Assembly (NCBI GenBank): GCA_018897155.1
Contig: JAHILE010000019.1
Location: 1 to 28,341, forward strand
DNA: 28,341 nt
Reading direction: 5' to 3'
Source of the DNA: Nanoarchaeota archaeon
GTDB taxonomy: Archaea; EX4484-52; LFW-46
Positions within the stretch are counted from its first letter, which is position 1. Each line of letters opens with the position of its first letter. Both the position numbers and the translations under genes were made by a program. Shown piece by piece: positions 8,420 to 28,341 of this stretch. The notes below the pieces were generated by a model. The model did no database searches. It was not told the origin of the DNA and saw only the letters and a program-made list of their open reading frames with translations.

Positions 8420-9235
8420 ATGCAACACAATGCAAATCTCGCCGCGCTTGAAACAGAGCTCAAGCTCCGCGGATTTTCCCCGCGCACTGTAAAGACATAT
8501 CTTTTCTACAACAAAAAGTTTCTGGAATTCACAAAAAAAGAGCCAAAAGACGCAACAGAAGACGATATCAGAAAATACCTTGCTGGAAAAATGTCAAGCG
8601 GCGAAATTTCGACATCATCAATCGCCTTGATGAAAGCCGCGCTGAAATTTTTCTATGACGACCTGCTGAAAAAAGGCATTGTCAATATCAAGGCGCCTAA
8701 AATATCGAATAAACTGCCGGTTGTTCTGACGCGCGCGGAAATAAAACGGCTCATTGACTGCACAACAAACGAAAAACACAGGCTGATGCTGCTGCTTTTA
8801 TATTCCTCCGGACTTCGGCTTTCGGAATGCATAAACCTGAAATACGGCGACATCGACCTTGAAGATGGAATGGGTTGGGTGCGCTCGGGAAAAGGAAAAA
8901 AAGACAGGATGTTCATACTTTCAGAAAAGCTGCGCGATGCCCTCAAAAAAGAAGCGAAATCAAGCGACTATGTTTTCACTGGCAGGAACGGGCCGATTAA
9001 GGCGCGCGCAGTGCAAAAGCTTGTTGAAAACGCGGCAAAAAGAGCAAAGATTGACAAACCGGTGCATGTGCATACGCTGCGCCACACTTTCGCAACGCAT
9101 CTTCTTGAGAATGGAACGGATATAAGAAAAATACAAAAGCTTCTCGGACATTCAAACCTTCAGACAACGCAAATATATACTTCAGTCTCAACAGAAGAAT
9201 TGAAAAAAGTCAAAAGCCCCATGGATAATCTTTAA
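8420..9235 (+). CDS. xerA: Tyrosine recombinase XerA
   Basis: XerA is the archaeal chromosome-dimer-resolving tyrosine recombinase, acting at a dif site. The N-terminal SAM-like core-binding domain starts LKLRGFSPRTVKTYLFYNKKF. The catalytic domain shows SGLRLSE (first Arg), the Lys in SGKGKKDR, HTLRHTFATHL (His-x-x-Arg), LLGHSN (second His) and the nucleophile Tyr in TTQIYTSV. The length of 271 aa equals that of chromosomal XerA proteins and there is no extra phage-integrase N-terminal domain. It is divergent from the flavodoxin-like gene, with only 51 bp between the two ATGs. A tRNA gene lies 250 bp downstream, but I see no duplicated tRNA end. Confidence 0.95.
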   Translation: MQHNANLAALETELKLRGFSPRTVKTYLFYNKKFLEFTKKEPKDATEDDIRKYLAGKMSSGEISTSSIALMKAALKFFYDDLLKKGIVNIKAPKISNKLPVVLTRAEIKRLIDCTTNEKHRLMLLLLYSSGLRLSECINLKYGDIDLEDGMGWVRSGKGKKDRMFILSEKLRDALKKEAKSSDYVFTGRNGPIKARAVQKLVENAAKRAKIDKPVHVHTLRHTFATHLLENGTDIRKIQKLLGHSNLQTTQIYTSVSTEELKKVKSPMDNL

Positions 9236-10173: not shown

Positions 10174-11679
10174 ATGCAGGAACAAACATTGCTTCAAACA
10201 TTCTTAAATGAGCAAGCGGATAAAAACGCTTTTGTGGCCCACCAGATAGACTCATTCAACGATTTTGTATCCCGAAGGCTTCAGCGCACAATAAACGAAA
10301 TCGGAAAAGTCACAGTTGAATTGTCCTCAGGCGAATTCCTTGACATAAAATTCGGGACGGTAAATCTTGGAAAACCAATAATCCGCGAAGCAAACGGCTC
10401 GACAAGATCCATACTTCCGCAGGAAGCGCGTCTTCGAAACCTCACATACTCATCCCCGCTGCTTGTCGAAATGACTCCGGTATTTGAAGGCAAGGCACAG
10501 GAAACAGAAGTTGTTGAAATCGGAGAAATCCCGATAATGATCAAATCGGTCCTCTGCCCTCTCTCGACAATGAACAAAGGCGAGCTCGTTCTTGCAGGAG
10601 AAGACATAAAAGATCCGGGCGGATACTTCATAATCAATGGCACTGAAAGAGTCGTAGTTCTTCTTGAAGAAGTCGCCCCGAACAAACTCATATTGCAGAA
10701 AGATGGCGAAGAATTTTTCGCGCGCATCAACAGCGAACGCAGCGGATATGTCCAGCGCCATGTGTTTGAGAGAAAGAGCAACGGCGTAATTGTTGCAAAA
10801 TTCGCAAACATAGTTAATACGCCGATTCCGATAGTCGCGCTGATGAAAGCGCTTGGAATGGAAACCGATAAAGAAATAATAGAGAACATAATCACAGATA
10901 ATGAAAGCGAGCTTGAAGAAACATACACAAACATCTATGAAGTAGAGGCATGCACGCGCGATGAAGCAATCGATTACATCGGAAGGCGGATGAAAGTAAT
11001 GCAAAAAGAGCATAGGGAAACAAGAGTTCTTCAGCTTCTTGATACATACCTGCTCGGCCATATAGGGCAAAGAGTCGAAGACAGAAAGAAAAAAGCAAAA
11101 TTCCTTGCAATAATCATGAGAAAGCTCATCCATGTAAAACATGGAACGCTCACCGTTGATGACATAGACCACTATGCAAACAAGAGGCTCAAGGGTGTCG
11201 GCGATCTTTTCGAAGACCTTTTGCGCTCGATAATCCTTGGAAGGTGGGGGCTTGTCGCAAGATTACAGTACAATTATCAAAAAATGATGAAGCGCGGAAG
11301 AAAATTCCTGAAGCTTCAAGGTGTCGTTGTTTCAGACGTGCTCACAAAGCAAATCATGCGCTCAATGGCAACGGGAAACTGGATAACTGGAAAAACCGGC
11401 GTATCGCAAAGGCTTGAGCGAAGCAATTTCATAAGGACAACAGAGCATCTTCGAAGCGTTGTTTCAGCACTTTCATCAACGCAGGAGCATTTTGAAGCAA
11501 GAGAACTGCACGCAACTCATATGGGAAGGCTTTGTTGCATAAGGACTCCTGAAGGGCAGAACATAGGGCTTAGGAATTTCCTTGCAATGGGCGCTAAACT
11601 GACACAGCCCGCAACAGATGCAGATAACTTAAAAATACTCACAACAATCAAGGCACTTGGCGCAAAAACAGACGGTTAA
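10174..11679 (+). CDS. rpoB2: RNA polymerase subunit B'' (N-terminal half of the second largest subunit)
   Basis: This is the N-terminal half of the RpoB homologue, which is split in many euryarchaeal and DPANN genomes. It carries the protrusion and lobe domains and the start of the fork. Recognisable stretches are HQIDSFNDFV near the start, DPGGYFIINGTERV, TGKTGVSQRLERSN, and HATHMGRLCCIRTPEGQNIG near the end (fork region). The length (501 aa) is normal. It normally lies directly before rpoB'. Here three unrelated genes separate the two halves, although the strand and spacing still look operon-like. Confidence 0.96.
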   Translation: MQEQTLLQTFLNEQADKNAFVAHQIDSFNDFVSRRLQRTINEIGKVTVELSSGEFLDIKFGTVNLGKPIIREANGSTRSILPQEARLRNLTYSSPLLVEMTPVFEGKAQETEVVEIGEIPIMIKSVLCPLSTMNKGELVLAGEDIKDPGGYFIINGTERVVVLLEEVAPNKLILQKDGEEFFARINSERSGYVQRHVFERKSNGVIVAKFANIVNTPIPIVALMKALGMETDKEIIENIITDNESELEETYTNIYEVEACTRDEAIDYIGRRMKVMQKEHRETRVLQLLDTYLLGHIGQRVEDRKKKAKFLAIIMRKLIHVKHGTLTVDDIDHYANKRLKGVGDLFEDLLRSIILGRWGLVARLQYNYQKMMKRGRKFLKLQGVVVSDVLTKQIMRSMATGNWITGKTGVSQRLERSNFIRTTEHLRSVVSALSSTQEHFEARELHATHMGRLCCIRTPEGQNIGLRNFLAMGAKLTQPATDADNLKILTTIKALGAKTDG

Positions 11680-11696
11680 TTAAAGGGGGAGATAAA

Positions 11697-12035
11697 ATGT
11701 ATAAGGTAAACCTAGCAGAAGTTATGCTGGAAACAACGCACGGCGGACCAGGACATAAACGCGCGCTCGTGAATAAGGAGGACGTAAGAAACCCGCACCT
11801 GATGTTCATGAACGAGGTGTATGTTCCCCCAAAAAGCGTATTGAAACTACATGTTCATCCGGACCTTGAAGAAATACATTATTTTATACTTGGAACAGGA
11901 AAAATGCTTGTCGGAAACGAATACATCAAAGTCAAAAAAGGAGACAGAATAATAGTCCCGCCAAAAAGCAGCCATTGCGTCGTAAATGCGGGAAATTCAG
12001 TGATGAAATACATTTGTCTTGGAATAAAATTATAG
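11697..12035 (+). CDS. Single-domain cupin protein
   Basis: This is a small metal-binding beta-barrel protein of unknown substrate. HVHPDLEEIHYFILGTGK is cupin motif 1: His52, His54 and Glu58 or Glu59 are likely ligands, and YFILGTGKMLVGNE is the following strand turn. PPKSSHCVVNAGN is motif 2 with the last His. The start has a strong ribosome-binding site (GGGGGAGAT just before AAAATG) and lies 17 bp after rpoB''. Cupins of this size often act as isomerases, dioxygenases or sensors; nothing here decides. It is the first of three genes inserted between the rpoB halves. Confidence 0.85.
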   Translation: MYKVNLAEVMLETTHGGPGHKRALVNKEDVRNPHLMFMNEVYVPPKSVLKLHVHPDLEEIHYFILGTGKMLVGNEYIKVKKGDRIIVPPKSSHCVVNAGNSVMKYICLGIKL

Positions 12036-12045
12036 AGGCTTGGCA

Positions 12046-12650
12046 ATGAATAAAATACTGAAGTTTTGCGTTTTTTGGGCAGTTGAGCTCAAATATCAAT
12101 TCACAAAAACTGAAATTTGAGTGTGAATTTTAAAAAACGCAAAACTTGAATAAAATATTGCTTATAATCGATGTACAAAAATATTTTATTAATGATTTAA
12201 CAAAGGATTTACCTGAAAAAAATCAAAAAATATATTGAAGAAAACAAAAGTAAGTTCAGCAAAATAATATTTACGCAATTCATAAACAACGGAAAAAACA
12301 ATTTCGTAAAATTAATGGACTGGCACGAAATGTCAAAACCGCCGCAAAGCGACATCGTCGATGAGTTGGCGCAACTTGCAACAAAAGAAAACACAGTCGT
12401 AAAAAATAGCTATTCCGCTTTCAAAAACAAAGGATTCAGAAAAATTTTGAAAGATAATAAAATAGAAGAGATATGGATTGCGGGAATAAATACCGAACAG
12501 TGTGTTTTTACAACGGCAATCGAAGCATTTGACCTCGGCTATAAACCAGTCATAATTTCAGGCTTGTGCAGAAGCAGCGCAAATGCGGAATGGCACGCAA
12601 CTGCAATTAAAGTCATGGTTGATATGATTGGTGAAAAACAGGTTGTATAA
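12046..12650 (+). pseudogene. Isochorismatase/nicotinamidase-family hydrolase, doubly disrupted
   Basis: The parts of one cysteine hydrolase are spread over three frames. The start ATGAATAAAATA (12046) is cut by an 87-bp palindromic insertion, after which the coding sense resumes as NKILLIIDVQKYF (catalytic Asp) in another frame. A second shift occurs in the A7 run 12216-12222: removing one A joins DLPEK to KIKKYIEENKSKFSKIIF. The rest continues with VKNSYSAF (catalytic Lys region) and GINTEQCVFTTAIEAFDLGY (catalytic Cys). The C-terminal half could still be translated from the ATG at 12315, but would lack the catalytic Asp. The family hydrolyses amides or enol ethers such as nicotinamide; the substrate is unknown. 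Confidence 0.85.
12061..12147. mobile_element. 87-bp palindromic insertion element in the hydrolase gene
   Basis: The ends AAGTTTTGCGTTTTTT (12061-12076) and AAAAAACGCAAAACTT (12132-12147) are perfect 16-bp inverted repeats. Inner inverted repeats are CTCAAAT/ATTTGAG and AATTCACA/TGTGAATT. Flanking direct repeats are GAATAAAATACTG (12048-12060) and GAATAAAATATTG (12148-12160), 12/13 identical and exactly 100 bp apart. Deleting the element and one repeat restores the start MNKILLIIDV. It encodes nothing and its ends differ from the IS5-type MITE. Confidence 0.75.
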
Positions 12651-12708
12651 TGGCATTTATTGCAGTTTAGTGAAAAACAGGTTGTATAATGGCATTTATT
12701 GCAGTTTA
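12631..12708 (+). repeat. 39-bp perfect tandem duplication across the hydrolase/cutA junction
   Basis: The units 12631-12669 and 12670-12708 are identical. Each contains the end of the hydrolase (EKQVV and TAA), the overlapping start TAATGG and the first six codons of cutA. In the first unit that start reads into a stop after MAFIAV; in the second it opens cutA. Confidence 0.95.
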
Positions 12709-13006
12709 CATCGCAAATCCCGACAAAAAGACCGCGAAAATGGTTGCGGCGCATTTGCTTGAAAACGGGCTGGCAGCGTGCGTGAATATTTTTCCGGCCG
12801 AGAGTTCATATCGATGGAAAGGGAAAATCGAATGCGCAAAAGAGTTCGCCGCGCTTGCAAAAACAACGCAGGAAAATTTTGAAAAAATAAAGCAGGAAAT
12901 CAAAAAAATTCATCCTTATGAGTGCCCTGAAGTCATGAAAATCGTGGCTGAAGCAAACGAAGAATATGAAAATTGGGTAAAAAAAGAATGTATGAGTCAA
13001 AGCTGA
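12689..13006 (+). CDS. cutA: CutA1 family divalent-cation tolerance protein
   Basis: CutA1 proteins are small cytoplasmic trimers with a ferredoxin-like fold, linked to copper and other divalent metal tolerance; the exact role is unsettled. The family pattern is complete: FIAVYIANPDKKTAKMVAAHLLENGLAACVN, then the SSYRWKGKIE strand, ALAKTTQENFEKI, and HPYECPEVMKI near the end. The length of 105 aa is normal. The start is the second copy of a duplicated ATG. Its stop TGA lies inside the TGAT ribosome-binding core of rpoB', 6 nt before that start, so the two are probably translated in a coupled manner. Confidence 0.94.
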   Translation: MAFIAVYIANPDKKTAKMVAAHLLENGLAACVNIFPAESSYRWKGKIECAKEFAALAKTTQENFEKIKQEIKKIHPYECPEVMKIVAEANEEYENWVKKECMSQS

Positions 13007-13007
13007 T
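13003..13007 (+). promoter_or_regulatory. Ribosome-binding core deciding the rpoB' start
   Basis: CTGAT ends 4 nt before ATG 13012. The same core occurs before rpoA' (14805-14809), rpoA'' (17344-17348), rpl30e (18502-18506) and rps7 (19955-19959), at 3-4 nt. It is complementary to the AUCAC of the archaeal 16S rRNA end. In rpoB' and rpoA' it contains the stop codon of the gene before. Confidence 0.65.
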
Positions 13008-13011
13008 ATTT

Positions 13012-14808
13012 ATGAGCGACATATATCTTAACGGCCAACATGTTGGAGAAACAAAAGACGGAAAAGAGCTTGTCAAGTCATTAATTGCAAAGAGGCGGCA
13101 AGGCGTACTTCCGACTATAATGAATGCCTGCTACTACGAAGAAAAGGATGAAGCCCAGATAAACACTGACGGCGGCAGGACAAGAAGGCCTTTAATCATT
13201 GTTGAAAACGGAGCTTCAAAGCTAACTGAAGCCTTGATAACACAACTCAAGGAAGGAAAAATCACATGGCAAAACCTGATTGAAAAAGGAATTGTAGAAT
13301 ACATAGATGCTGAAGAAGAAGAAATGGCATATGTCACGTTTTATAGTAAAGATCTTACAAAAAAACATACACATATTGAAATAGATCCTATGATGATTGT
13401 GGGCGTCGGCGCTTCACTTCTTGTTTTCCCTGAAAAGAACAGAGGAGACAGATCAAACTACGGCTCAAGAATGGTCACGCAGGCAGTTGGAATGTATCTT
13501 CACAACCACATGCTTCGTGATGACACAACCGCGCAAACAATGGTCTATCCCCAGGAACCGCTGGTACAATCAGAAACAATACATGCGGCAGGCGTTGATA
13601 TTCACCCGGCAGGCCAGAACCTGATAATTGCGGTCATGCCGTTCTACGGATACAACATAGAAGATGCAATAGTCATAAACAAAGCATCAATCGAACGCGG
13701 CCTTGGCAGATCTTATTCTTTCAGAACATACGTTACAGAAGCCAATCGATATTGGGGTGGACAGGAAGATGAAATAGGATTCCCGGAAACCAGTGTGCGA
13801 GGCTACAAATCAGAAAAAGAATATAACAAACTAGATCCTGATGGAATTGTTTCACCCGAAACAAATGTTGAAGGAAGTGATGTTGTAGTCGGAAAGACAT
13901 CACCGCTAAGATTCCTGGGGGTGGCAAAGGAAACAAGGCTTGGGATAAAAAACAGGAGAGACAATTCACTTGTTGTAAATGCTGCAGAAGGCGGCGTTGT
14001 TGACAAAGTAATAATGACTGAATCCAAGGAAGGAAACCGCCTTATCAAAGTCACTGTAAGAGAGCTTAAAATTCCTGAAATCGGAGATAAATTCGCTTCA
14101 AGACACGGGCAAAAAGGCGTCCTTGGAATAATAGTTCCAGAAGAAGACATGCCATTTACAGCAGACGGAATAACTCCGGATATAATTTTCAACGCCCACG
14201 CAATACCTTCAAGAATGACAATAGGACATTTGCTTGAAATAATCGGCGGAAAGGCAGGCGCGCTAGCAGGTGAAAAAATCAACGGAACTGCATTCAAGGG
14301 TGATGAGGATTACATAACAAAACTTCTCAAAGCCACAGGAATGAGAGACGATGGAAAAGAAACGCTTTACAACGGAATAACCGGAGAAAAAATCGAAGTG
14401 CAGATACTTACAGGCATAATTTACTACCAAAGGCTTTACCACCTAGTATCACAGAAGATGCACGCGCGTTCCAAAGGCCCGGTTGCACTGCTCACAAAAC
14501 AGCCGACTGAAGGGCGTTCAAAAGAAGGCGGCCTAAGATTCGGAGAGATGGAAAAAGACACGCTTGTCGCGCACGGAGCAGCAATAACGCTGAAAGAAAG
14601 ATTCAGTTCAGACCGCTCGACAATACCGTTCTGCGAAACATGCGGAATAACAGCAGTTATCGACAAGATTAAGAATAAAACATTCTGCCCGCTCTGCAAA
14701 GGATCAAAAATTAAGAATGTTGAGATGTCTTACGCATTCAAGCTCCTCCTTGATGAAATGAAGAGCATGATGATTTACCCGCAGATTGTTATGGAGGACG
14801 AGGAGTGA
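13012..14808 (+). CDS. rpoB1: RNA polymerase subunit B' (C-terminal half of the second largest subunit)
   Basis: This is the C-terminal half of the RpoB homologue, with the hybrid-binding and wall domains and the clamp-anchoring end. Diagnostic stretches are GYNIEDAIVINKASIERG, GDKFASRHGQKGVLG (active-site lysine region), and HARSKGPVALLTKQPTEGRS near the end. A C-terminal zinc ribbon reads CETCGITAVIDKIKNKTFC PLC. An in-frame ATG lies upstream at 12973 inside cutA, but 13012 fits the family start (DIYLNGQHVGET) and has the TGAT core. The length of 598 aa is normal. The stop overlaps the ribosome-binding core of rpoA'. Confidence 0.96.
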   Translation: MSDIYLNGQHVGETKDGKELVKSLIAKRRQGVLPTIMNACYYEEKDEAQINTDGGRTRRPLIIVENGASKLTEALITQLKEGKITWQNLIEKGIVEYIDAEEEEMAYVTFYSKDLTKKHTHIEIDPMMIVGVGASLLVFPEKNRGDRSNYGSRMVTQAVGMYLHNHMLRDDTTAQTMVYPQEPLVQSETIHAAGVDIHPAGQNLIIAVMPFYGYNIEDAIVINKASIERGLGRSYSFRTYVTEANRYWGGQEDEIGFPETSVRGYKSEKEYNKLDPDGIVSPETNVEGSDVVVGKTSPLRFLGVAKETRLGIKNRRDNSLVVNAAEGGVVDKVIMTESKEGNRLIKVTVRELKIPEIGDKFASRHGQKGVLGIIVPEEDMPFTADGITPDIIFNAHAIPSRMTIGHLLEIIGGKAGALAGEKINGTAFKGDEDYITKLLKATGMRDDGKETLYNGITGEKIEVQILTGIIYYQRLYHLVSQKMHARSKGPVALLTKQPTEGRSKEGGLRFGEMEKDTLVAHGAAITLKERFSSDRSTIPFCETCGITAVIDKIKNKTFCPLCKGSKIKNVEMSYAFKLLLDEMKSMMIYPQIVMEDEE

Positions 14809-18510: not shown

Positions 18511-18798
18511 ATGACGCTTGAAAAAGAAATAAAAAAAGCAGTTGAAACAAAAAAAGTGCTAATCGGCGCGGAAACAACAATGAAGGCGCTTAAGGCCGGT
18601 GGGCTTAGCTCGGTTGTAATCGCTTCAAACTGCCCGGAAAACATAAAATCAGACATAGAACACTATGGAAAGCTTTCAGAAATCGCAATAAAACCATTCA
18701 AAGGCAACAGCGCGGATTTAGGCGCGCTTTGTGTAAAACCTTTCAAAATCGCTGTAATTGGAATTTTGAAGCCCGTGGCTTCAAAAGCTTCGAACTAA
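18511..18798 (+). CDS. rpl30e: Ribosomal protein L30e
   Basis: This is an RNA-binding L7Ae/L30e-family protein of the large subunit, in its usual archaeal place after rpoA''. The core reads EKEIKKAVETKKVLIGAETT, KALKAGGLSSVVIASNCPEN, and GNSADLGALCVKPFKIAVIGI. ATG 18511 is preceded by GTGAT (18502-18506); a GTG at 18502 is part of that core, not the start. The last residues (KPVASKASN) are encoded by a 10-bp palindrome of the intergenic repeat family, so the natural C-terminus has probably been replaced by repeat-derived sequence. Confidence 0.9.
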   Translation: MTLEKEIKKAVETKKVLIGAETTMKALKAGGLSSVVIASNCPENIKSDIEHYGKLSEIAIKPFKGNSADLGALCVKPFKIAVIGILKPVASKASN

Positions 18799-18896
18799 GT
18801 GAGATGATTTTGAGGGAAAGGATTCCTCAAAAGCCTCGCACGAGCGAAGCGATTTTGAGGCGAAGCCTCAAAAGCTTGGAAATTCGAAGAATTTCC
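18764..18896. repeat. Cluster of four hairpins between rpl30e and nusA
   Basis: Hairpin 1 is TTTTGAAGCC-CGT-GGCTTCAAAA (18764-18786), inside the rpl30e end. Hairpin 2 is TTTTGAGG...CCTCAAAA (18808-18832). Hairpin 3 is TTTTGAGGC-GAA-GCCTCAAAA (18853-18873). Hairpin 4 is GGAAATTC-GAA-GAATTTCC (18878-18896). Stems are perfect and of 8-10 bp. Related sequence occurs at 1101-1130, 9270-9307 and 9663-9747. The cluster could fold in the operon message as a processing or attenuation signal. Confidence 0.75.
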
Positions 18897-18938
18897 ATGA
18901 AGTAAGAGGATCAAGAAATAAATCGCGTTGCTGAGCAC

Positions 18939-19367
18939 ATGAAAATAACCATTTCCCATGAAGACATCCAGACAATGGCGCTTTTTGAAAAAATGGCGAA
19001 AACAGTTGTGGTTGATTATTATAAGAATACTGAAGACGGCGACGAGCTGATATTTGTCGTCAAATGCAGGAGTTTAAGCGATGTTGTGGGCCCGCAAGGA
19101 AAGCGCATAAAAGAGATACAATCCCGTTTCGGACGCGATATAAAGGTTTTTAAATATTCCTCCGAAATAAAAGAGTTCGCGGAAAACGTGCTTCCAGTCC
19201 CTCTCAAATCATTTGAAATCTCTGAGAAAGGTGGGAAAAAAACAGTTAAAATCTCGGTTGAGCAGAAAGACAAATCGCTTGCAATCGGCCGCGGAGGAAA
19301 AACAATAAAGAACGCGGCAACGCTTCTGAAACGTATTTTCGGAATTGAGGATTTAAAATTATTATGA
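18939..19367 (+). CDS. nusA: NusA-like transcription factor (archaeal, two KH domains)
   Basis: Archaeal NusA is a short RNA-binding protein made of two KH domains, without the polymerase-binding and S1 parts of bacterial NusA. The first KH loop is VVGPQGKRIKEIQ and the second is AIGRGGKTIKNAA, each with the GxxG RNA-binding signature. The length of 142 aa matches the family. The start ATG at 18939 lacks a clear TGAT core, so translation may depend on the folded spacer or on a separate start. It lies between rpl30e and rps12 as in many archaea. Confidence 0.95.
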   Translation: MKITISHEDIQTMALFEKMAKTVVVDYYKNTEDGDELIFVVKCRSLSDVVGPQGKRIKEIQSRFGRDIKVFKYSSEIKEFAENVLPVPLKSFEISEKGGKKTVKISVEQKDKSLAIGRGGKTIKNAATLLKRIFGIEDLKLL

Positions 19368-19390
19368 TTTAAATGTAATGAAGTTTAGTT

Positions 19391-19412
19391 TTCGCCAAAT
19401 GCATTTGGCGAA
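19391..19412. repeat. Perfect 22-bp palindrome between nusA and rps12
   Basis: TTCGCCAAAT-GC-ATTTGGCGAA is fully self-complementary, and a second TTCGCCA/TGGCGAA pairing is possible with 19413-19419. No T-run follows, so a simple terminator is unlikely. A protein-binding site or message-processing hairpin would fit. Confidence 0.8.
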
Positions 19413-19515
19413 TGGCGAAAAATCTGTTCGCAACGCTTTATAGACCATGAACCGCGTTGCTCTCAGCTTTTTAGTCCAGATAGAAATGCAAAAAGTTAGT
19501 GAGGAATGACTAAAA

Positions 19516-20600: not shown

Positions 20601-21068
20601 ATGCTCAGGTTTCGAAACAGAAAAAAGGCAATTGTCACAGCAGATATGGCTGTTGCACTGGTAATTTTTGTTCTGATGCTGTCTATCGCATTCTATTATC
20701 TTTCATATTTATCAAAGCCCAAACAGCCTTTTGAGGCTACGCTCAAGGCTGAAGGAGCGCTAATTGGCGAAAAACTTGTGGGCAATACAACCTGGACGGT
20801 TTACAAGCTGCCTGTATGGGTTGAATCAACAGTCACAGGAAACGCAAGCTTTGAGCTGTTCTTCTATCCGGATCCTTACATAGATCTCAATTCTATTGCA
20901 ATGCAAGATGAAAATTCGACCGAAATTCCGTCCTCTTTCTTAGACAATCATATTGTATGGATAAGCAATGTCACTCTAGGAAAGAGCCTTTTCTATCTGA
21001 CGTATCTTAAAAGCAGCGGGTTGGATGCAACGATTTATGATACTGGGCTTTTAAGCTCTGAACAGTAA
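20601..21068 (+). CDS. Membrane-anchored pilin-like extracellular protein
   Basis: The family is not recognised with certainty. The start MLRFRNRKKAIVTADMAVAL is a short basic stretch followed by one hydrophobic helix (about residues 15-37), as in archaeal type IV pilin-like proteins. The remainder, about 115 residues, is predicted to be outside the cell and has several N-x-S/T sites. A TATA-like AACTATTTATC (20568-20578) lies about 28 nt before the ATG, so the gene is likely transcribed apart from the ribosomal operon. It ends 6 bp from the stop codon of the first surface-protein tail copy on the other strand. Confidence 0.65.
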   Translation: MLRFRNRKKAIVTADMAVALVIFVLMLSIAFYYLSYLSKPKQPFEATLKAEGALIGEKLVGNTTWTVYKLPVWVESTVTGNASFELFFYPDPYIDLNSIAMQDENSTEIPSSFLDNHIVWISNVTLGKSLFYLTYLKSSGLDATIYDTGLLSSEQ

Positions 21069-21073
21069 AATAC

Positions 21074-21253
21074 TTAAGCCCATGTCCAGTTAGCCGCTGA
21101 GCCCCTTGGAATTATCCAGCCCGCGCCGCTGTTGTTGAATGTTGTCCAGGTCCAGTTTACTTCGTTTCCTAATCTGATTTTATCTCCGGTGTACGGCAGT
21201 TGCCATACCCAGTTGCTGTTTGATGCCGCTGTTGAAACCATTGTCGGCGTTCC
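21074..21253 (-). pseudogene. Tail copy A: detached 3' end of the beta-helix surface gene
   Basis: The last 180 bp of the surface protein gene are repeated without a start. Read on the minus strand it encodes VGTPTMVSTAASNSNWVWQL through IIPRGSAANWTWA and TAA. Positions 21116-21253 are identical over 138 nt to 25429-25566. The final 42 nt differ from the intact gene but match tail copies B and C closely. It lies 21 bp after the stop of the ATPase gene, on the same strand. Confidence 0.92.
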
Positions 21254-21274
21254 GACTGCTAACTGATAAATGAT

Positions 21275-22558
21275 TTATTCCAAAAGCCATTTCCAAAGAG
21301 GGGTGTAACTGATTTTCTTATCATTTATTTTTTCCTCGCTTTCCACATCCTCAGTTATTATAAGCCCCTCTTTTAGCTTAAAGGCGTCCATAGCCTCCAT
21401 TAATCCATTAATTTCACGATCCTTGTTTTCCTTTATTTGATATGAAACTTGTATTGCTTGCATAACCTTTTGTCCGTTCTTTATCAAAAAATCGCATTCT
21501 CCTTTATTTTTATAATAATATATTTCTTTTCCGCTTTTAACTAATGAAAGAAACACTGTATTTTCATACAACTTTCCAATATTCTCGCTAAACCTGAAAC
21601 CGGCAATGTTTATCAATCCGGAATCAATACAATATACTGCTCTCGGATTTACTTCCTGCTCTTTTAGCGAGTATGAAAATTTTGGAACAAAAAATACAAG
21701 ATACGCTTCTGCCATGCAAGCAGAAAATCGCTCTACACTATCCGCGCTTACGCCCAAAAACCCTGCAATCTTTCTATATGAAGCGGCTGACGAAAAATTT
21801 GTCAAATAATATCTGGCAAGCGCTTTTAGTTTTTCTGTTTTTCTTATCTTGTGCCGCATGGCCACGTCCCGTTCCACAATGTCGTCGAAATATCTTCGAA
21901 GTATTTCTTCCTTTTCCTCTTTTAGCGCCGCTAAAGGAAATCCGCCGAATTCTAGATATTCGCGAAGTAGCTGTTTTATTCGGGTTTTTTGGGAGAGCAT
22001 ATCCAGCTTATTTTCTATTTTCACTTGGTTGAATAACAGGAATTCACGAAAACTCAGAGGATACGCCTTTATTTCCACCCATCTGCCGGTAATGAGTGTG
22101 CCCAGTTCCTTGCTAAGCAGCTTTGAAGTCGAGCCGGAAATAAAAATATTTGCTTCTTTTTTTTCGTGCAAACCCCTGACAAATCGTTCCCATTTCGGGA
22201 CATTTTGCACTTCATCCAAAAAAATCCAAGGCTTGCCTTTCGGCTTTATTATTTCCATATACGAGTCATAAATCTGCTGCAGAAATTCAAGGGAAAGAAT
22301 GCCCGAGAATTTCGGCTCTTCAAAATTTACATATAAAAAAGATGATTTGTCGGCACCCTCCGACATCTTTCTTTTAATGAATTGCTTCATCAAAGTAGAT
22401 TTTCCGCTTCTTCGAACACCTGTTATGGCTACAATCTGCTCTGTGCGCGCCATGCGGCCGATATTATCAAGATATGTTTTTCGTTCTATACCTGTCTCTT
22501 GCTCTCTTCTCCAGAAATTCCAGCTGCTCAGTATTTCTATTATTTCTTCGTTGTTCAT
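21275..22558 (-). CDS. AAA-family ATPase with DUF4143-like C-terminal domain
   Basis: Walker A is ITGVRRSGKSTLM (near residue 47) and Walker B is WIFLDEVQNVPKWE. The sensor region is ANIFISGSTSKLLSKEL and the domain closes with GRWVEIKAYPLSFREF. These are typical of the AAA_14/DUF4143 ATPases common in archaeal accessory islands. The C-terminal half (about 200-427) has a winged-helix part and a nuclease-like fold with GECDFLIK, in the place where restriction-endonuclease-like acidic residues are found. The function is unproven; a role in mobile elements or toxin-antitoxin-like systems is often proposed. A TATA-like box (22581-22588) lies 26 nt upstream. Confidence 0.88.
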   Translation of the reverse strand: MNNEEIIEILSSWNFWRREQETGIERKTYLDNIGRMARTEQIVAITGVRRSGKSTLMKQFIKRKMSEGADKSSFLYVNFEEPKFSGILSLEFLQQIYDSYMEIIKPKGKPWIFLDEVQNVPKWERFVRGLHEKKEANIFISGSTSKLLSKELGTLITGRWVEIKAYPLSFREFLLFNQVKIENKLDMLSQKTRIKQLLREYLEFGGFPLAALKEEKEEILRRYFDDIVERDVAMRHKIRKTEKLKALARYYLTNFSSAASYRKIAGFLGVSADSVERFSACMAEAYLVFFVPKFSYSLKEQEVNPRAVYCIDSGLINIAGFRFSENIGKLYENTVFLSLVKSGKEIYYYKNKGECDFLIKNGQKVMQAIQVSYQIKENKDREINGLMEAMDAFKLKEGLIITEDVESEEKINDKKISYTPLWKWLLE

Positions 22559-22640: not shown

Positions 22641-22752
22641 TTAAGCCCATGTCCAGTTAGCCGCAGAGCCTCGTGGAATTATCCAGCCCGCGCCGCTGTT
22701 GTTGAATGTTGTCCACTGCTAGTTTAATTCGTTTCCTAATCTGATTTTTATC
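22641..22752 (-). pseudogene. Tail copy B: short, decayed 3' end of the surface gene
   Basis: The copy has 112 bp with an in-frame TAG in place of the WTW stretch and one extra T near 22748. It encodes the remainder of RLGNE...WTTFNNSGAGW and IIPRGSAANWTWA with TAA. The 33-nt core (22683-22715) is unchanged. It lies 9 bp after the HEPN stop and is the most degraded copy, so it is probably the oldest. Confidence 0.88.
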
Positions 22753-22760
22753 ACAATCAA

Positions 22761-23273
22761 TTATTCTTCCATAATTCTTTTAGACACACCCAAAATTCTT
22801 TTAGCAGAATCTAGCAATTCTTCATAAGTCTTATCTTCCATCGAAAGTTTTGTTCCGTATTGGTGCTGTTCTCTTATACTTATGATTGTTTCTTTTTCCG
22901 TTTGTTTTTCCGAATCTGCGCTTGCTATTTTTTTCAATAAAACCGTATCAAAACTTATTTTCCCTTCCTCTGCCAAATTCGAAATTAATGCAAATGTGCA
23001 TTCTTGGTTTCCGGATTCATAGCCAAATTTCATAAGTATTGCTAAAAGTGAATGATACATCGCATAAAATGCTGCGGGTCCGCACCAATCAGGAAATTCA
23101 CTATTTTTCAGATAAATCATTAATTTCAGATTATGTTCAGCTTTTGCTATATGGTCCCTCGCTTTTACACTATTTGGAGTGATTTTAACTAATCCCCTGT
23201 GTTTCGTTCCTTCTTTCAATTCTCTTTCGGCTTTTTTCAAGCACCAGTCAACCTTATTTTTTGAATAGCTCAT
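22761..23273 (-). CDS. HEPN-domain protein (partner of nucleotidyltransferase)
   Basis: HEPN proteins are small all-helical proteins, often ribonuclease toxins paired with MNT-type nucleotidyltransferases. Typical helices are DHIAKAEHNLKLMIYL, then WCGPAAFYAMYHSLLAILMKFG, and a final SIREQHQYGTKL that stands where the HEPN Arg-containing motif is expected. It overlaps the upstream nucleotidyltransferase gene by 4 nt (ATGA), so the two are co-translated. The length of 170 aa fits. It is similar in layout to the second pair at 24218-25349 but the sequences have diverged widely. Confidence 0.82.
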   Translation of the reverse strand: MSYSKNKVDWCLKKAERELKEGTKHRGLVKITPNSVKARDHIAKAEHNLKLMIYLKNSEFPDWCGPAAFYAMYHSLLAILMKFGYESGNQECTFALISNLAEEGKISFDTVLLKKIASADSEKQTEKETIISIREQHQYGTKLSMEDKTYEELLDSAKRILGVSKRIMEE

Positions 23274-23848
23274 TTAACCAACTCAATTAATTTTTCTTCC
23301 CCAAATGCGATAATTCCCTTCAATGCATTTAACACAACAGCGTCTCTTCTCAATATATTCTCTTCCAAATCTTTCGAGGACTGGAAAATAGCATGCATCT
23401 CTTTTTCATTTATTTGGTTCAAATCTTTGATTTCTTCATTCAACTTTTCAAACCTATCCTGGCTGGTTACAATCAACACGTCAACATCATCTGCTTTGCC
23501 TTCCTTTTTTAAAACAGAGCCAAAAATTAGAACAATATCCGCATTTTTTATTTTTCTGACTTCAGTAATCCAGCGCTTAACATACGGCGAGCTATGTTCG
23601 GCTTCCCTTTTGAGAACAAACATTAGGTAATCTTTTGCATAATCATTACGGAAATTGATCCTGTAGAATGTTGCCTTACCAGCGACTTTTGCAGCCAATA
23701 TGTTTTCTTTCTCAAGCCGTTTCAATATCTTTAAGGCACCCATCGGCGTGATATTCAGTTCCTTGGATATGCTAGTAGCGTTAAATTCCTTTTCCGGACT
23801 CTTAAATATCCTTAATACGCTAAGCATCTCGTTTCTTGTAATGTCCAT
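23270..23848 (-). CDS. HTH-fused MNT-type nucleotidyltransferase
   Basis: Residues 1-75 form a winged helix-turn-helix (ATSISKELNITPMGALKILKRLEKE). Residues 100-140 contain the minimal nucleotidyltransferase signature IFGSVLKKEGKADDVDVLIV, with GS and DxD. MNT proteins act as antitoxins by modifying or blocking the HEPN partner. The N-terminal DNA-binding domain suggests that it represses its own promoter. That promoter contains a perfect 18-bp palindrome 15 nt before the ATG. Confidence 0.85.
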   Translation of the reverse strand: MDITRNEMLSVLRIFKSPEKEFNATSISKELNITPMGALKILKRLEKENILAAKVAGKATFYRINFRNDYAKDYLMFVLKREAEHSSPYVKRWITEVRKIKNADIVLIFGSVLKKEGKADDVDVLIVTSQDRFEKLNEEIKDLNQINEKEMHAIFQSSKDLEENILRRDAVVLNALKGIIAFGEEKLIELVK

Positions 23849-23954: not shown

Positions 23955-24177
23955 CTACGCCCACGTCCAGTTAGCCGCAGAGCCTCGTGGAATTATCCAG
24001 CCCGCGCCGCTGTTGTTGAATGTTGTCCAGGTCCAGTTTACTTCGTTTCCTAATCTGATTTTATCTCCGGTGTACGGCAGTTGCCATACCCAGTTGCTGT
24101 TTGACGCCATGGTAGAAACCATTGTCGGAGTTCCTACAGATATTTCTGTGCTGCCGTTCAGGGCGATTGTAAACGAC
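23955..24177 (-). pseudogene. Tail copy C: 223-bp 3' end of the surface gene
   Basis: This is the longest tail copy, collinear with 25387-25609 and without indels. It encodes SFTIALNGSTEISVGTPTMV to IIPRGSAANWTWA and TAG. The reading frame stays open upstream to an ATG at 24221, which overlaps the HEPN stop as ATGA, so an 88-residue fusion beginning MKTGNAILIAAYRQ could be made. The junction is flanked by a small hairpin, TTGCCG/CGGCAA (24180-24196). I consider it a detached gene end, not a normal gene. Confidence 0.9.
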
Positions 24178-24217: not shown

Positions 24218-24775
24218 TCATTGCAGATTGATGATTTCTTTAACTTTATTTACAAACGTCTCGGCATATTTCTTTGCTTCTTCAGCAAGCATAATCTCAA
24301 ATCCCCGAGAAACCCCGTAATTTGCTCTTTCTCTCAATGCTTTTGTCCGTACAAACGATTCTATATCTTCCTCTCCAAGGCACTTGCCCAACAGCGCCAC
24401 ATCGTTTTTTGTCAAATTCATTGATTTATGGTAGTAGTAATATATAACGGCACATAAAGTTGCTGAATGTGATTTTGAAGAAACGCCCAATTTGGCCAAA
24501 AGAGCCATTGCCGCATGATATATCGAATAGTAAAAGGCGGATATCGCCCAGTCATAGAAATTCTCTTCTTTGCCGAATATTTTCGGAATTTCATCATTAT
24601 GCTTGTCTATCAGCCAATTAGAGAAAGACAGATTGTGCTCCGCTTTTTTAATAAAGTCTTTTGGCGTTCTGGTCTCTGCTCTAAGCGCACGCTTTCTTGA
24701 ATATTCGTCCAGCCATTCCTTGCAGGCCATCTCATCAGTTATCCAAATCTGCCAATCAGGCGCTTTATTTTTCAT
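24218..24775 (-). CDS. HEPN-domain protein
   Basis: This protein is predicted to be an all-helical HEPN-family toxin-like partner. Helices DFIKKAEHNLSFSNWLID and DWAISAFYYSIYHAAMALLAKLG match the family, and LRERANYGVSRGFE near residue 150 occupies the place of the Arg-containing motif; I see no clear RxxxxH. Its N-terminus (WITDEMACKEWLDEYSRKRA) is longer than in the paralogue at 22761. It overlaps the nucleotidyltransferase gene by 11 nt, and is followed within 41 bp by tail copy C. The length is 185 aa. Confidence 0.82.
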   Translation of the reverse strand: MKNKAPDWQIWITDEMACKEWLDEYSRKRALRAETRTPKDFIKKAEHNLSFSNWLIDKHNDEIPKIFGKEENFYDWAISAFYYSIYHAAMALLAKLGVSSKSHSATLCAVIYYYYHKSMNLTKNDVALLGKCLGEEDIESFVRTKALRERANYGVSRGFEIMLAEEAKKYAETFVNKVKEIINLQ

Positions 24776-25349
24776 TTTCCAACAACACCCACCATTCTAT
24801 TCCTTGAACGATTATCCGGTTTTGCTTTAATTCCTGCATAAAACTGTCTGTTTCATTGAAGAGTTTTTGCCTGAATTCGCTAAATGTCATGTATACGGGA
24901 GAAATTTCAGTTCCCTGCTTATATTTAACAAGCTTGATTTTACTTTCGATGTCTTCCCTATCAACAGTGTTAAATACCAAAAACAAATCAACATCGCTTT
25001 TGTCAGTATATGTTCCTTTTGCATAAGAACCGAAAAGAATCGTCAACAAGGGTTTGTTTGACAGTTGTCTTATGAATTCAAAAATGGAATTTCCGACCTT
25101 TGCCGGCAGTCCATTTAGCCTCGCATATTCAACTGCATAAATGTTCGGAATTATGGTATTGCTTCCATAATTCAGATATAGTTTGACATTTCTGCCTTCT
25201 TTTTTCTTGTAAATCAGCTTTTCTTTTTCCAGCGACTTTATATGATGCGCCATAGTGGGCATTCCGGCTTTTAATGCCCTTGAAAGTTCTCTGATATGGC
25301 TGCCAGGATTTCTATAAATTAATCCGATGAGCTTTGTCCGTGTTTTCAT
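24765..25349 (-). CDS. HTH-fused MNT-type nucleotidyltransferase
   Basis: The N-terminal winged helix (residues 1-60, HIRELSRALKAGMPTMAHHI) resembles ArsR-type regulators. The signature ILFGSYAKGTYTDKSDVDLF at about residues 104-123 is the GSxxxG...SDxDL active site of minimal nucleotidyltransferases. It is probably the antitoxin and autoregulator of the HEPN partner. The start at 25349 lies only 38 bp from the stop of the surface protein gene. A TATA box and a 12-bp palindrome fill that gap, so nothing else separates the two genes. Confidence 0.87.
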   Translation of the reverse strand: MKTRTKLIGLIYRNPGSHIRELSRALKAGMPTMAHHIKSLEKEKLIYKKKEGRNVKLYLNYGSNTIIPNIYAVEYARLNGLPAKVGNSIFEFIRQLSNKPLLTILFGSYAKGTYTDKSDVDLFLVFNTVDREDIESKIKLVKYKQGTEISPVYMTFSEFRQKLFNETDSFMQELKQNRIIVQGIEWWVLLENEK

Positions 25350-25386: not shown

Positions 25387-25609
25387 CTACGCCCACGTCC
25401 AATTTGTCGCCGAGCCTCTCGGGATTGTCCAGCCCGCGCCGCTGTTGTTGAATGTTGTCCAGGTCCAGTTTACTTCGTTTCCTAATCTGATTTTATCTCC
25501 GGTGTACGGCAGTTGCCATACCCAGTTGCTGTTTGATGCCGCTGTTGAAACCATTGTCGGCGTTCCTACAGATATTTCTGTGCTGCCGTTCAGGGCGATT
25601 GTAAACGAC
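25387..25609 (-). repeat. Tail copy D: the intact gene's own 3' end, source of copies A-C
   Basis: This 223-bp end recurs at 23955-24177, 22641-22752 and 21074-21253. The 33-nt core at 25429-25461 is identical in all four. The last 40 nt of this copy (VTIPRGSATNWTWA-type end) differ from the other three, which agree with one another (IIPRGSAANWTWA). Confidence 0.95.
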
Positions 25610-28341
25610 TGCAGGTTTCCATTTGCGTCGGCTGTTAATGTGTATGGATTTTCCTGTGTGCCGGCTGACGTATTGTACACATAGTATGTTGTGCCCGGCA
25701 GCATTCCGGTGATGTTATAACGCGCAGTCAATCCCGCAGTGCCGTTTGTATCATTCCAGCGCATAACAATTGTGTTCCAGTTGACAAGGGTGCGGTTGAG
25801 CGAGCCTGCGGCAGAAACATTTGTCTTGAGCCAAATGTTCTGCGAGCTGTCGTTTCTGTAGTTGAACCATGAAGTGGCGTCATTGAAGTAAATCTGTCTT
25901 TTTGCGGTGAAGTTTGTGCCGGTGAAGTTGTTGATATTAGATGCAGAATCAAGGTCAAGATAATAGTCATAGCTCGCCTTTGCGATTATCGAGCCGCCTG
26001 TGATGTTGTTCAATGCGGATGAATAAATATAGACGCCGTACGCCGATGTGTTTGTTGTTAAGATGGTGTTGTTCGCGAGGGTATTTGTGCCGGACGAGGA
26101 GAGCACAACGCCGTATCCGTCTGAGCCCGAGGTTGAAATGGTGTTGTTCGCGAGGGTATTTGTGCCGGACGAGGAGAGCCAGACGCCGTATCCCCATGAG
26201 CCCGAGGTCGAGATGGTGTTGTTCGCGAGGGTGTTTGAACTGCTGGATAATCTGAGCCAGACGCCGTATCCGTATGAGCCCGAGGTCGAGATGGTGTTGT
26301 TCGAAAGGGTGTTTGAATTGCTGGACGAGTAGAGATAGACGCCGTATCCGCTTCCGTCTTTTATACTTATAGTGTTATTCGTTATATTACTATTTATCAT
26401 CCCTGAAGTATATATACCGTGGTTTGTTGTCCCATCTGCAGTTGCATTATCCTGAACAATATTCAGGTTCTTTATCGTAATATTATCCCAGCCGCCTGTG
26501 TTATTTATCCCATAACCATTGCCAATTTGCGAATAATTAATCGTATATCCTGCGCCGTCAAGGGTGACGTTATTCTCCTTGATTGTAAAACACGTCGAAT
26601 CTGCAGAAACATTTCCGACCAGATTATACGCCTCAGGAAGGTCTAAGTCGCCGCACGACGTTAAGTTGAGCGCCTGAACCTGTATTTGCGTGTTGCCGTT
26701 AAGTGCGATTGTGAATGACGGCAGAACTCCGCTTGCATCAGTGTCCTGCAGGTATGCTCTTGTCCTTATGCTGCCCGTAGTGTTGTAGATTGCGTATGTT
26801 GTGTTTGCCAAAAGGCCGGTCAGATTATACGTCGCAGTCAAAGCTACTGAAGGCGTTTCGTTCCATTTCATTGTGCTGTTGGACCATGTCGTAAGAGTCC
26901 TGGTATATGTACTACTTGCTGAAGATGTCTTTGCCTTTAGCCAAATATTTCCGTTGGTCTCGTTGTTGTAGTTGAACCATGAAGTTGTGTCATAAAATGA
27001 AATATATCCCGGCACAGTAAAATTGGTATTTGTAAAGTTATTTGTCGTGCTTGCATTTCTCAGATAATAACTGAGTGCTGTGCCTTCGGAAATGGAGTTG
27101 TTGTTCGATGACCGAACATAAATATCATCCGTCCCACCAGAGATCAAAATGTTGCCTTTTATCTGATTTGTGTTACTCAATAACAGCGTTATTCCGTACG
27201 CAGTGCCTGAAGAATATATTGTATTGTTTGTTATGTTATTCAAGTTTGAGGAGTCCACATAGATACCATCCTCGCCTAAGCCTAATGTAGTTATTGTGTT
27301 ATTTATCAGCGTGTTTGAATTGCTTGATAAATTGACATATATGCCGGCACTTGCGCCAGCGAATGAATCTGTTGTTATGTTGTTATTTGACAATATGTTC
27401 GAGCTGCTGGAGTTCAGTACGATACCATAGTCATAATATCCCATAAGAACACGCAGACTGTTATTGGCTATGCTGTTTGAGTTGCTTGATGCCGTTAAAT
27501 ATATGCCCCTGCTATTGTCTCCCCGTGTAACAATAGAATTGTTCTTTATGGTTGCGTTCGTTACACCTCTTAGATAAACCGCATGAGCATCGGTAATCGC
27601 ATCATCACTATGAACAATATTGAGATTCATTATCGTAAGATTGTCATATCCCAATGAATCATTTATTGCATACCCCGACACTGATTGAGAATAGTTTATC
27701 CAATATCCAGCTCCGTCCAAAGTGACGTTGTCCGCCTTGATTGTGAAGCACGTCGCATCAGCAGAAACATTTCCAACAAGATTATACGTCTCCGGAAGGT
27801 CCAAATCGCCGCACGACGTCAGGTTGAGCGCCTGAACCTGTATTTGCGTGTTGCCGTTAAGTGCGATTGTGAATGACGGCAGAACTCCGCTTGCATCAGT
27901 GTCCTGCAGGTATGCTCTTGTCCTTATGCTGCCGGTGGTGTTGTAGATTGCGTAAGTCTTTGACGGCAGAAGTCCTGTGAGGTTATACGTCGCAGTCAGC
28001 GCTGCCGAAGGCGTTTCGTTCCATTTCAATGTATTGTTAGACCATGTGGCGAGGGTGCGGTTCAGGGAGCCTGCGGCGGAAAGTTTGTTCTTAAGCCAGA
28101 CGTTTCCGGTATTGTTATTATAGTTGAACCATGTTGATGTATCCTGGAAGTAAATCTGCCTCTTTGCGGTGAAGTTTGTGCCGGTGAAATTGTTGGTATT
28201 GGATGCAGAATCAAGATCAAGATAATAATCATAACTTTTCTGTGCGATTATCGAGCCGCCTGTGATGTTGTTCAATGCGGATGAATAAATATAGACGCCG
28301 TACGCCGATGTGTTTGTTGTTAAGATGGTGTTGTTCGCGAG
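25387..28341 (-). CDS. Giant beta-helix surface protein, 5' end beyond the window
   Basis: The frame is open from the right edge to the TAG at 25387, so at least 984 residues are present and the start is missing. The apparent start near 28275 is only an internal TTG codon. The protein is built of modules of about 386 residues. Each has NosD/PbH1-type parallel beta-helix turns rich in N-N-T-I, then a beta-sandwich-like block (WFNYNN, NIWLK, TAxYNLTGLL) that closes with SFTIALNG. Next comes LTSCGDLDLP, followed by the next module. N-x-S/T sites are very frequent, as expected for a glycosylated extracellular protein. The end is rich in tryptophan (NWTWTTFNNSGAGW, NWTWA). No membrane anchor is seen. 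Confidence 0.9.
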   Translation of the reverse strand, partial: LANNTILTTNTSAYGVYIYSSALNNITGGSIIAQKSYDYYLDLDSASNTNNFTGTNFTAKRQIYFQDTSTWFNYNNNTGNVWLKNKLSAAGSLNRTLATWSNNTLKWNETPSAALTATYNLTGLLPSKTYAIYNTTGSIRTRAYLQDTDASGVLPSFTIALNGNTQIQVQALNLTSCGDLDLPETYNLVGNVSADATCFTIKADNVTLDGAGYWINYSQSVSGYAINDSLGYDNLTIMNLNIVHSDDAITDAHAVYLRGVTNATIKNNSIVTRGDNSRGIYLTASSNSNSIANNSLRVLMGYYDYGIVLNSSSSNILSNNNITTDSFAGASAGIYVNLSSNSNTLINNTITTLGLGEDGIYVDSSNLNNITNNTIYSSGTAYGITLLLSNTNQIKGNILISGGTDDIYVRSSNNNSISEGTALSYYLRNASTTNNFTNTNFTVPGYISFYDTTSWFNYNNETNGNIWLKAKTSSASSTYTRTLTTWSNSTMKWNETPSVALTATYNLTGLLANTTYAIYNTTGSIRTRAYLQDTDASGVLPSFTIALNGNTQIQVQALNLTSCGDLDLPEAYNLVGNVSADSTCFTIKENNVTLDGAGYTINYSQIGNGYGINNTGGWDNITIKNLNIVQDNATADGTTNHGIYTSGMINSNITNNTISIKDGSGYGVYLYSSSNSNTLSNNTISTSGSYGYGVWLRLSSSSNTLANNTISTSGSWGYGVWLSSSGTNTLANNTISTSGSDGYGVVLSSSGTNTLANNTILTTNTSAYGVYIYSSALNNITGGSIIAKASYDYYLDLDSASNINNFTGTNFTAKRQIYFNDATSWFNYRNDSSQNIWLKTNVSAAGSLNRTLVNWNTIVMRWNDTNGTAGLTARYNITGMLPGTTYYVYNTSAGTQENPYTLTADANGNLQSFTIALNGSTEISVGTPTMVSTAASNSNWVWQLPYTGDKIRLGNEVNWTWTTFNNSGAGWTIPRGSATNWTWA
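26063..26365 (-). repeat. Tandem 75-78-bp repeats encoding beta-helix turns
   Basis: Four units begin at 26063, 26138, 26213 and 26291. Each encodes one 25-26-residue turn, such as NTLANNTISTSGSDGYGV. The first units are almost identical at the DNA level, so slippage or recombination could change their number without breaking the frame. Confidence 0.9.
26665..26775 (-). repeat. 111-nt exact internal repeat of the surface gene
   Basis: This stretch is identical to 27823-27933, at an offset of 1,158 bp, which equals 386 codons. It encodes the SFTIALNGNTQIQVQALN region of two successive modules. Confidence 0.85.
28243..28341 (-). repeat. 99-nt exact repeat at the right edge of the window
   Basis: This stretch is identical to 25981-26079, with a mismatch immediately before it. 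The window stops inside the repeat, as expected when an assembly breaks at a repeated module. Confidence 0.85.

Follow-up and report, generated by a model that had tools for sequence, protein, structure and literature searches.

The element e14 integrates at the end of a gene, icd, and the gene is restored. In archaea, elements with tyrosine recombinases are found in tRNA genes (PMC8371274). In Vibrio cholerae, sequential displacement gave rise to type VI effector-immunity arrays, for which homology-facilitated illegitimate recombination was proposed, and analogous orphan 3′ modules of Rhs and CDI were discussed in this context (PMC5361080). Archaeal integrons, reported in DPANN lineages as well, hold arrays of small gene cassettes that are rich in toxin-antitoxin and phage-resistance genes (PMC9668308).

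Here, we analyzed a window that is a whole contig (C19; 28,341 nt) of a 1.43-Mb archaeal genome (G000), in which four copies of one gene end appear as direct repeats enclosing three inserted cassettes. The closest precedent appears to be the T6SS/Rhs arrays of Vibrio, where, as proposed for this locus, an incoming module is anchored by a homologous conserved stretch and placed at the 3′ end of a gene, while old end pieces are displaced downstream and the array grows stepwise (PMC5361080). In contrast to those arrays, the C-terminus of the host gene here is nearly unchanged, the cargo is an independent toxin-antitoxin or defence unit, and the target genes, among them those for phosphoglucomutase, a transporter, a surface protein and an acyltransferase, are numerous and unrelated. 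The resemblance to archaeal integrons lies in the small-cassette arrays and their cargo (PMC9668308); however, the repeats here are coding gene ends that vary between loci and have no common motif, which probably sets them apart from attC sites of a single type, and the window array has no integron integrase next to it. The two best-scoring recombinases exceeded the XerA cut-off and fell below the cut-offs for integron integrases (IntI). Insertion at the 3′ end of a gene, restoration of that gene and a displaced end downstream are shared with e14 and the tRNA-gene elements (PMC8371274 for the archaeal elements), whereas the cassettes here have no integrase, no common core, unrelated targets and a cargo of one or two genes. 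A literature search, with most subscription papers beyond its reach, found no description of the exact pattern in archaea. The cargo is ordinary, as it belongs to the known HEPN/MNT, AbiE and PDC-S01 (AAA_14-DUF4143) families, and the flanking duplication of gene ends is the unusual part; the pattern as a whole would be a variant on known tail-displacement arrays, with many unrelated host genes.

Layout of the array and its gene-end copies

On the minus strand, a NosD/beta-helix surface protein gene ends in tail D. Two MNT-HEPN pairs come next, the first closed by tail C and the second by tail B, and the array finishes with an AAA_14-DUF4143 ATPase and tail A, the latter probably being the original gene end (Table 1). 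Toxin, antitoxin and defence functions are predicted from family membership, and PADLOC assigned the ATPase to PDC-S01 and the nucleotidyltransferases to PDC-M05A, both phage-defence candidates. The tails are not of equal length: they share the stop codon as common end and differ at their inner ends (about 183 bp for A, about 108 for B and about 222 for C), with tails C and D matching at 94% over 224 bp. The surface gene is itself repetitive (window 25573-28341; positions 27841-28341 match 25573-26079 at 76%), and because the contig ends inside this repeated sequence, the assembly probably broke there.

Table 1 Features of the array and gene-end repeats on other contigs (window positions unless a contig is named)
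Feature	Position	Strand	Evidence or remark
NosD/beta-helix surface protein gene, 5′-truncated at the contig end	25387..28341	-	PF05048/PF13229; stop codon ends at 25387
Tail copy D, 3′ end of NosD/beta-helix gene	25387-25609	-	
Invariant 34-nt stretch, copy D	25428..25461	-	
Nucleotidyltransferase (MNT, antitoxin-type), winged-helix N-terminus, cassette 3	24765..25349	-	PF01909 1.8e-10; PDC-M05A 2.4e-20
HEPN protein (toxin-type), cassette 3	24218..24775	-	PF05168 3.3e-07
Tail copy C	23955..24177	-	Invariant stretch 23996-24029
Nucleotidyltransferase (MNT), cassette 2	23270..23848	-	PF01909 2.1e-05; PDC-M05A 4.4e-12
HEPN protein, cassette 2	22761..23273	-	PF05168 1.7e-07
Tail copy B, shortest, with internal stop	22641..22748	-	Invariant stretch 22682-22715
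AAA_14-DUF4143 ATPase, cassette 1	21275..22558	-	PF13173 7.7e-39, PF13635 1.3e-20; PADLOC PDC-S01 1.9e-121
Tail copy A, most distal	21074..21256	-	
Invariant 34-nt stretch, copy A	21115..21148	-	
XerA-type tyrosine recombinase	8420..9235	+	NF040815 263.6 bits, cut-off 220
Phosphoglucomutase end repeat	C23:18086-18211 and 19290-19415		
MFS transporter end repeat	C23:21945-22061 and 20643-20759		
C3 gene with end repeat	C3:16627-17817		

The sequence-only reading had singled out 33 nt as identical in all four tails while both sides vary, and had proposed a recombination core or very recent copying. Sequence comparison confirmed that the four 33-mers are identical, and the true invariant run is one base longer (34 nt). 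Allowing up to three mismatches, no further copy was found in the window (0 in shuffled sequence). In an alignment of all four tails, with 108 common columns of which 17 are variable, a run of 34 nt was longer than expected from shuffling (P = 0.014; median longest shuffled run, 18). Variation on both sides was borne out only in that one copy sets each limit, copy B alone on the left in gene direction (GGACC to AGCAG) and copy D alone on the right (T to C), whereas A, C and D do not vary over 109 nt once copy B is left out. Because single copies set its limits and no difference separates A, C and D over this length, the 33-34 nt stretch is not sharply bounded but an overlap of individually conserved stretches, and it reads as the mere portion of the tail left unchanged in every copy rather than a dedicated crossover site.

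The proposal of a recombination core survived in part: recombination between tails, and exchange of cargo at gene tails in relatives, were upheld, and the dedicated core was not. Cargo breakpoints had been predicted to fall inside the core, but the junctions fall outside it, one always just past the stop codon and the other scattered within the gene. The alleles form a mosaic beyond the right edge of the core, with B equal to C in the middle (CCACGAGGCTCTGCGGCTAAC) and to A at the end (ATGGGCTTAA). It had also been argued that coding constraint cannot act on copies A-C for want of a start; copy C, however, sits within an 88-aa ORF having an ATG, and the copies could have diverged inside intact genes of other cells, their differences being biased towards third codon positions. 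The tail was considered as a genome-wide or clade-wide repeat and rejected as such, as this genome has only the four copies and 100 relatives have none; tail comparisons among relatives were made on other tails instead. Viral carriage of the core was rejected, with 0 matches in IMG/VR.

Recurrence in the genome and among relatives

When DUF4143 and HEPN loci were scanned genome-wide, further locus-specific direct repeats were found. A cargo-blind scan for direct repeats (up to about 3 kb apart and at about 70% identity or more) covered 51 contigs, or 904 kb of 1,426 kb (63% of the genome), and placed 17 of 50 HEPN, MNT or DUF4143 ORFs between direct repeats, compared with 21 of 830 other ORFs (p = 5e-13). 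The enrichment persisted without the window contig (12/45 versus 21/805, p = 2e-8). Roughly half the contigs in the scan were chosen for their HEPN, MNT or DUF4143 genes, so a per-genome rate would be biased, while the comparison within the scan is unbiased. Several of the 21 other enclosed ORFs are AbiE, PIN, DUF234 ATPase or DUF262 and hence defence genes too, and most repeat-flanked sites hold a predicted defence or toxin-antitoxin unit. About two thirds of the HEPN, MNT and DUF4143 ORFs in this genome have no flanking repeats within reach.

The repeats (46-224 bp, 76-95% identity) are mostly locus-specific and usually duplicate the last part of the gene next to them, as far as the stop codon; at the phosphoglucomutase, MFS transporter and C3 genes they reach it within a base or two. 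A mirror case on contigs C4, C5 and C37 involves repeated 5′ parts, not the 3′ end, of a flippase gene (named by eye), with PIN, MNT-HEPN and ATPase cargo between them. Repeats at C43 and L295 are intergenic. On C43 (L082, 1788-9066), related intergenic repeats lie between a DUF262 (GmrSD/HEC-06-like) gene and a methyltransferase/restriction-like cluster; a XerA-type recombinase gene directly follows the cluster, giving an integron-like layout with non-coding repeats.

In the sole same-genus relative of the comparison set (G001, LFW-46), the phosphoglucomutase site is empty, with 24 bp separating the end of the gene from its downstream neighbour and no cassette present; the next-best named matches of this gene were mostly Candidatus Aenigmatarchaeota (61-65% protein identity), which probably places the window within or close to this group. 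G001 shows the repeat pattern at a gene that by eye resembles isoleucyl-tRNA synthetase, and it also carries an array of MNT-HEPN, AbiE and DUF4143 with a membrane-protein tail in between. The HEPN-MNT pair at the synthetase locus is common to G000 and G001 (87% DNA identity), with different sequence between the pair and the gene. The displaced synthetase-like tail (L186, G001 C56, 17330-18734) ends in SEVVILD-stop, the gene itself being about 20 residues longer, and gene-end exchange may have altered the C-terminus here. More distantly placed examples include one gene end in four copies with toxin-antitoxin-like cargo between them (array L311 in G012) and an acyltransferase end (L285 in G019), of which the displaced copy has kept its overlap with the convergent gene next to it, and additional cases were found in G023, G033, G011 and G017. 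The pattern is frequent in several families of the order and not universal, because many HEPN and DUF4143 loci elsewhere lack such a repeat.

Matching cargo sits behind different host genes in different families. The window ATPase has 76% DNA identity over 1136 bp to a copy behind an SMC gene in G032 (family f7), and the locus pairs L285/L283 (78%), L290/L321 (75%) and L313/L298 (73%) have the cargo as their only common protein, with differing flanking genes. Homology between cargo copies does not reach beyond the coding sequence, and shared cassette ends were accordingly not seen. At another locus (L310, G003 C9, 2713-9300), five successive DUF4143 ATPase genes lie about 1.3-1.5 kb apart and are 68-79% alike in parts.

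Paralogy of the usual kind, chance or faulty assembly might be suspected, given that the contig ends in a repetitive surface gene and that metagenome assemblies can mis-join repeats. However, the repeats are imperfect (76-95%) and lie inside contigs, they recur at different genes in several separate genomes of different families, and the enrichment for defence cargo is strong (p = 5e-13), which makes this explanation extremely improbable.

Divergence of the copies and possible routes of insertion

Across nine pairs of copies from eight host genes, 72 of 121 differences lay at third codon positions (p = 3e-9 against the 1/3 of equal positions; p = 0.02 against the 1/2 of a model with one neutral copy). 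Because differences favour third positions, most divergence appears to have arisen in working genes of different lineages; at the older MFS and C3 pairs, third-position changes are no more than the one-copy-neutral model predicts. Two copy comparisons in G012 were purely synonymous, with 4/4 and 6/6 differences at third positions.

These counts bear on transposition or a staggered cut, by which the repeats would be a very long target duplication with the distal copy decaying neutrally. The geometry of repeat and cargo does resemble a target-site duplication, and the inner parts look truly duplicated at D/A and phosphoglucomutase. A neutral headless copy would not, however, give the third-position bias seen in the pooled counts and in G012, repeat length varies between loci, and the cassettes have no common ends, with cargo homology confined to the coding sequence. 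The fixed short target duplication and terminal inverted repeats of DDE transposons were also not found, the repeats being diverged and mostly coding. Neutral target-site duplication was rejected on the codon-position counts, and we regard transposition or a staggered cut followed by such decay as very improbable.

Differences between copies also crowd towards the gene end (37 versus 77 after exclusion of L183, whose count is inflated by indels), a skew that is absent at MFS, C3 and L290; C-terminal ends evolve faster in general. Phosphoglucomutase mismatches number 1/64 in the inner 64 bp versus 15/62 in the last 62 bp (p = 9e-5), and over this end portion the proximal and distal copies and the sister-genome sequence look about equally distant from each other by eye. 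Similarly, tails D and A share 139 identical bases followed by 11 mismatches in the last 41 columns, with one mismatch at the far inner edge. Such sequence comparisons suggest that a diverged allele of the gene end came in together with the cassette.

The best explanation, which we hold with moderate confidence, is homology-anchored capture, by which defence cassettes would be placed behind genes and the old tail would be displaced. Incoming DNA from a related cell, consisting of the end of the same gene and a toxin-antitoxin or defence cassette, would recombine with the resident gene, for which the homologous gene end would act as anchor. In the resident gene, the incoming allele would take the place of the last bases, followed by the cassette, so that the proximal end would be of donor origin, while the other end of the incoming DNA would join within the resident gene end, possibly by homology-facilitated illegitimate recombination, and a remnant would be left downstream as displaced tail. 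Repeated events in the newest tail would produce an array, and the tail copies in the window would be the scars of three successive insertions. Duplication of the inner part from the resident and replacement of the end by an incoming allele would be expected to give inner identity and end divergence, as observed at D/A and phosphoglucomutase, and the locus-specific repeats duplicate the end of the gene beside them, as a homologous anchor should. The inner junctions are scattered. No donor molecule or genome bearing the same tail allele was found.

The nearest rival is Campbell integration, in which small circles of tail and cassette would integrate by a single crossover through general homologous recombination; the distal copy would be donor on the left and native on the right, and excision between the repeats would regenerate the circle. 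Tails D and C in the window differ on both sides of an identical middle, as do the MFS, C3 and C18 repeats, which fits a crossover inside the repeat. Conversely, the identical inner parts and diverged ends at D/A and phosphoglucomutase require that the inner part of the donor equalled the native one, no circular form was seen and the core is absent from IMG/VR, and we consider this route doubtful.

Apart from capture and Campbell integration, a tyrosine integrase (e.g., the XerA-type enzyme of the window or that on C43) could act at a gene-end core, with the element restoring the gene and the 33-nt stretch being such a core. The genome has two XerA-type and several other integrases, identical central runs are longer than in shuffles at some loci, and the phosphoglucomutase core has a 6-bp inverted repeat. 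Nevertheless, the cores of seven loci have no common word beyond chance (P = 0.29), an inverted repeat comes close to significance in only one of them (P = 0.07), homology reaches far beyond any core on both sides, and the target genes are unrelated. Because the seven cores share neither a word nor an inverted repeat beyond chance and the cassettes, holding only toxin-antitoxin or ATPase genes, lack a recombinase, a site-specific core was rejected and an integrase is improbable; XerA-type recombinases are present in the genome and nothing ties them to the cassettes.

Going beyond homology-anchored capture, DPANN of this order might possess a dedicated route, independent of target sequence, that places one- or two-gene defence cassettes behind genes via a gene-end swap. 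We consider this unlikely; if true, it would define a new class of mobile unit without recombinase or fixed ends.

Possible retention of cassettes and the spread of defence genes

The 33 bases themselves are not the story; the spread of defence genes is, because the same events are found at many unrelated genes here and in relatives. The insertion scars offer a readable record of how small defence or toxin-antitoxin units may move from chromosome to chromosome without a recombinase: differences in the duplicated gene ends seem to mark the point where the incoming allele took over, and the events can be counted in each genome. Direct repeats make it easy for an insert between them to be lost, unless its loss is lethal, which may explain why these loci are rich in toxin-antitoxins, as loss of such a cassette would be punished. 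The same reasoning suggests that the common AAA_14-DUF4143 ATPase could also be addictive.

Elsewhere in the window, RNA polymerase subunit B (10174-14808) is in two pieces, 10174-11679 and 12973-14808. Archaea with a split rpoB are known, but the genes in between look odd here: one is cupin-like, one is an isochorismatase-like fragment and one is CutA-like. A DDE-type transposase gene at 1216-2184 runs across two reading frames and has probably decayed. Finally, an intergenic palindromic repeat at 18790-18910 (GAGGCGAAGCCTCAAAAGC type) seems to resemble repeats on other contigs of this genome.
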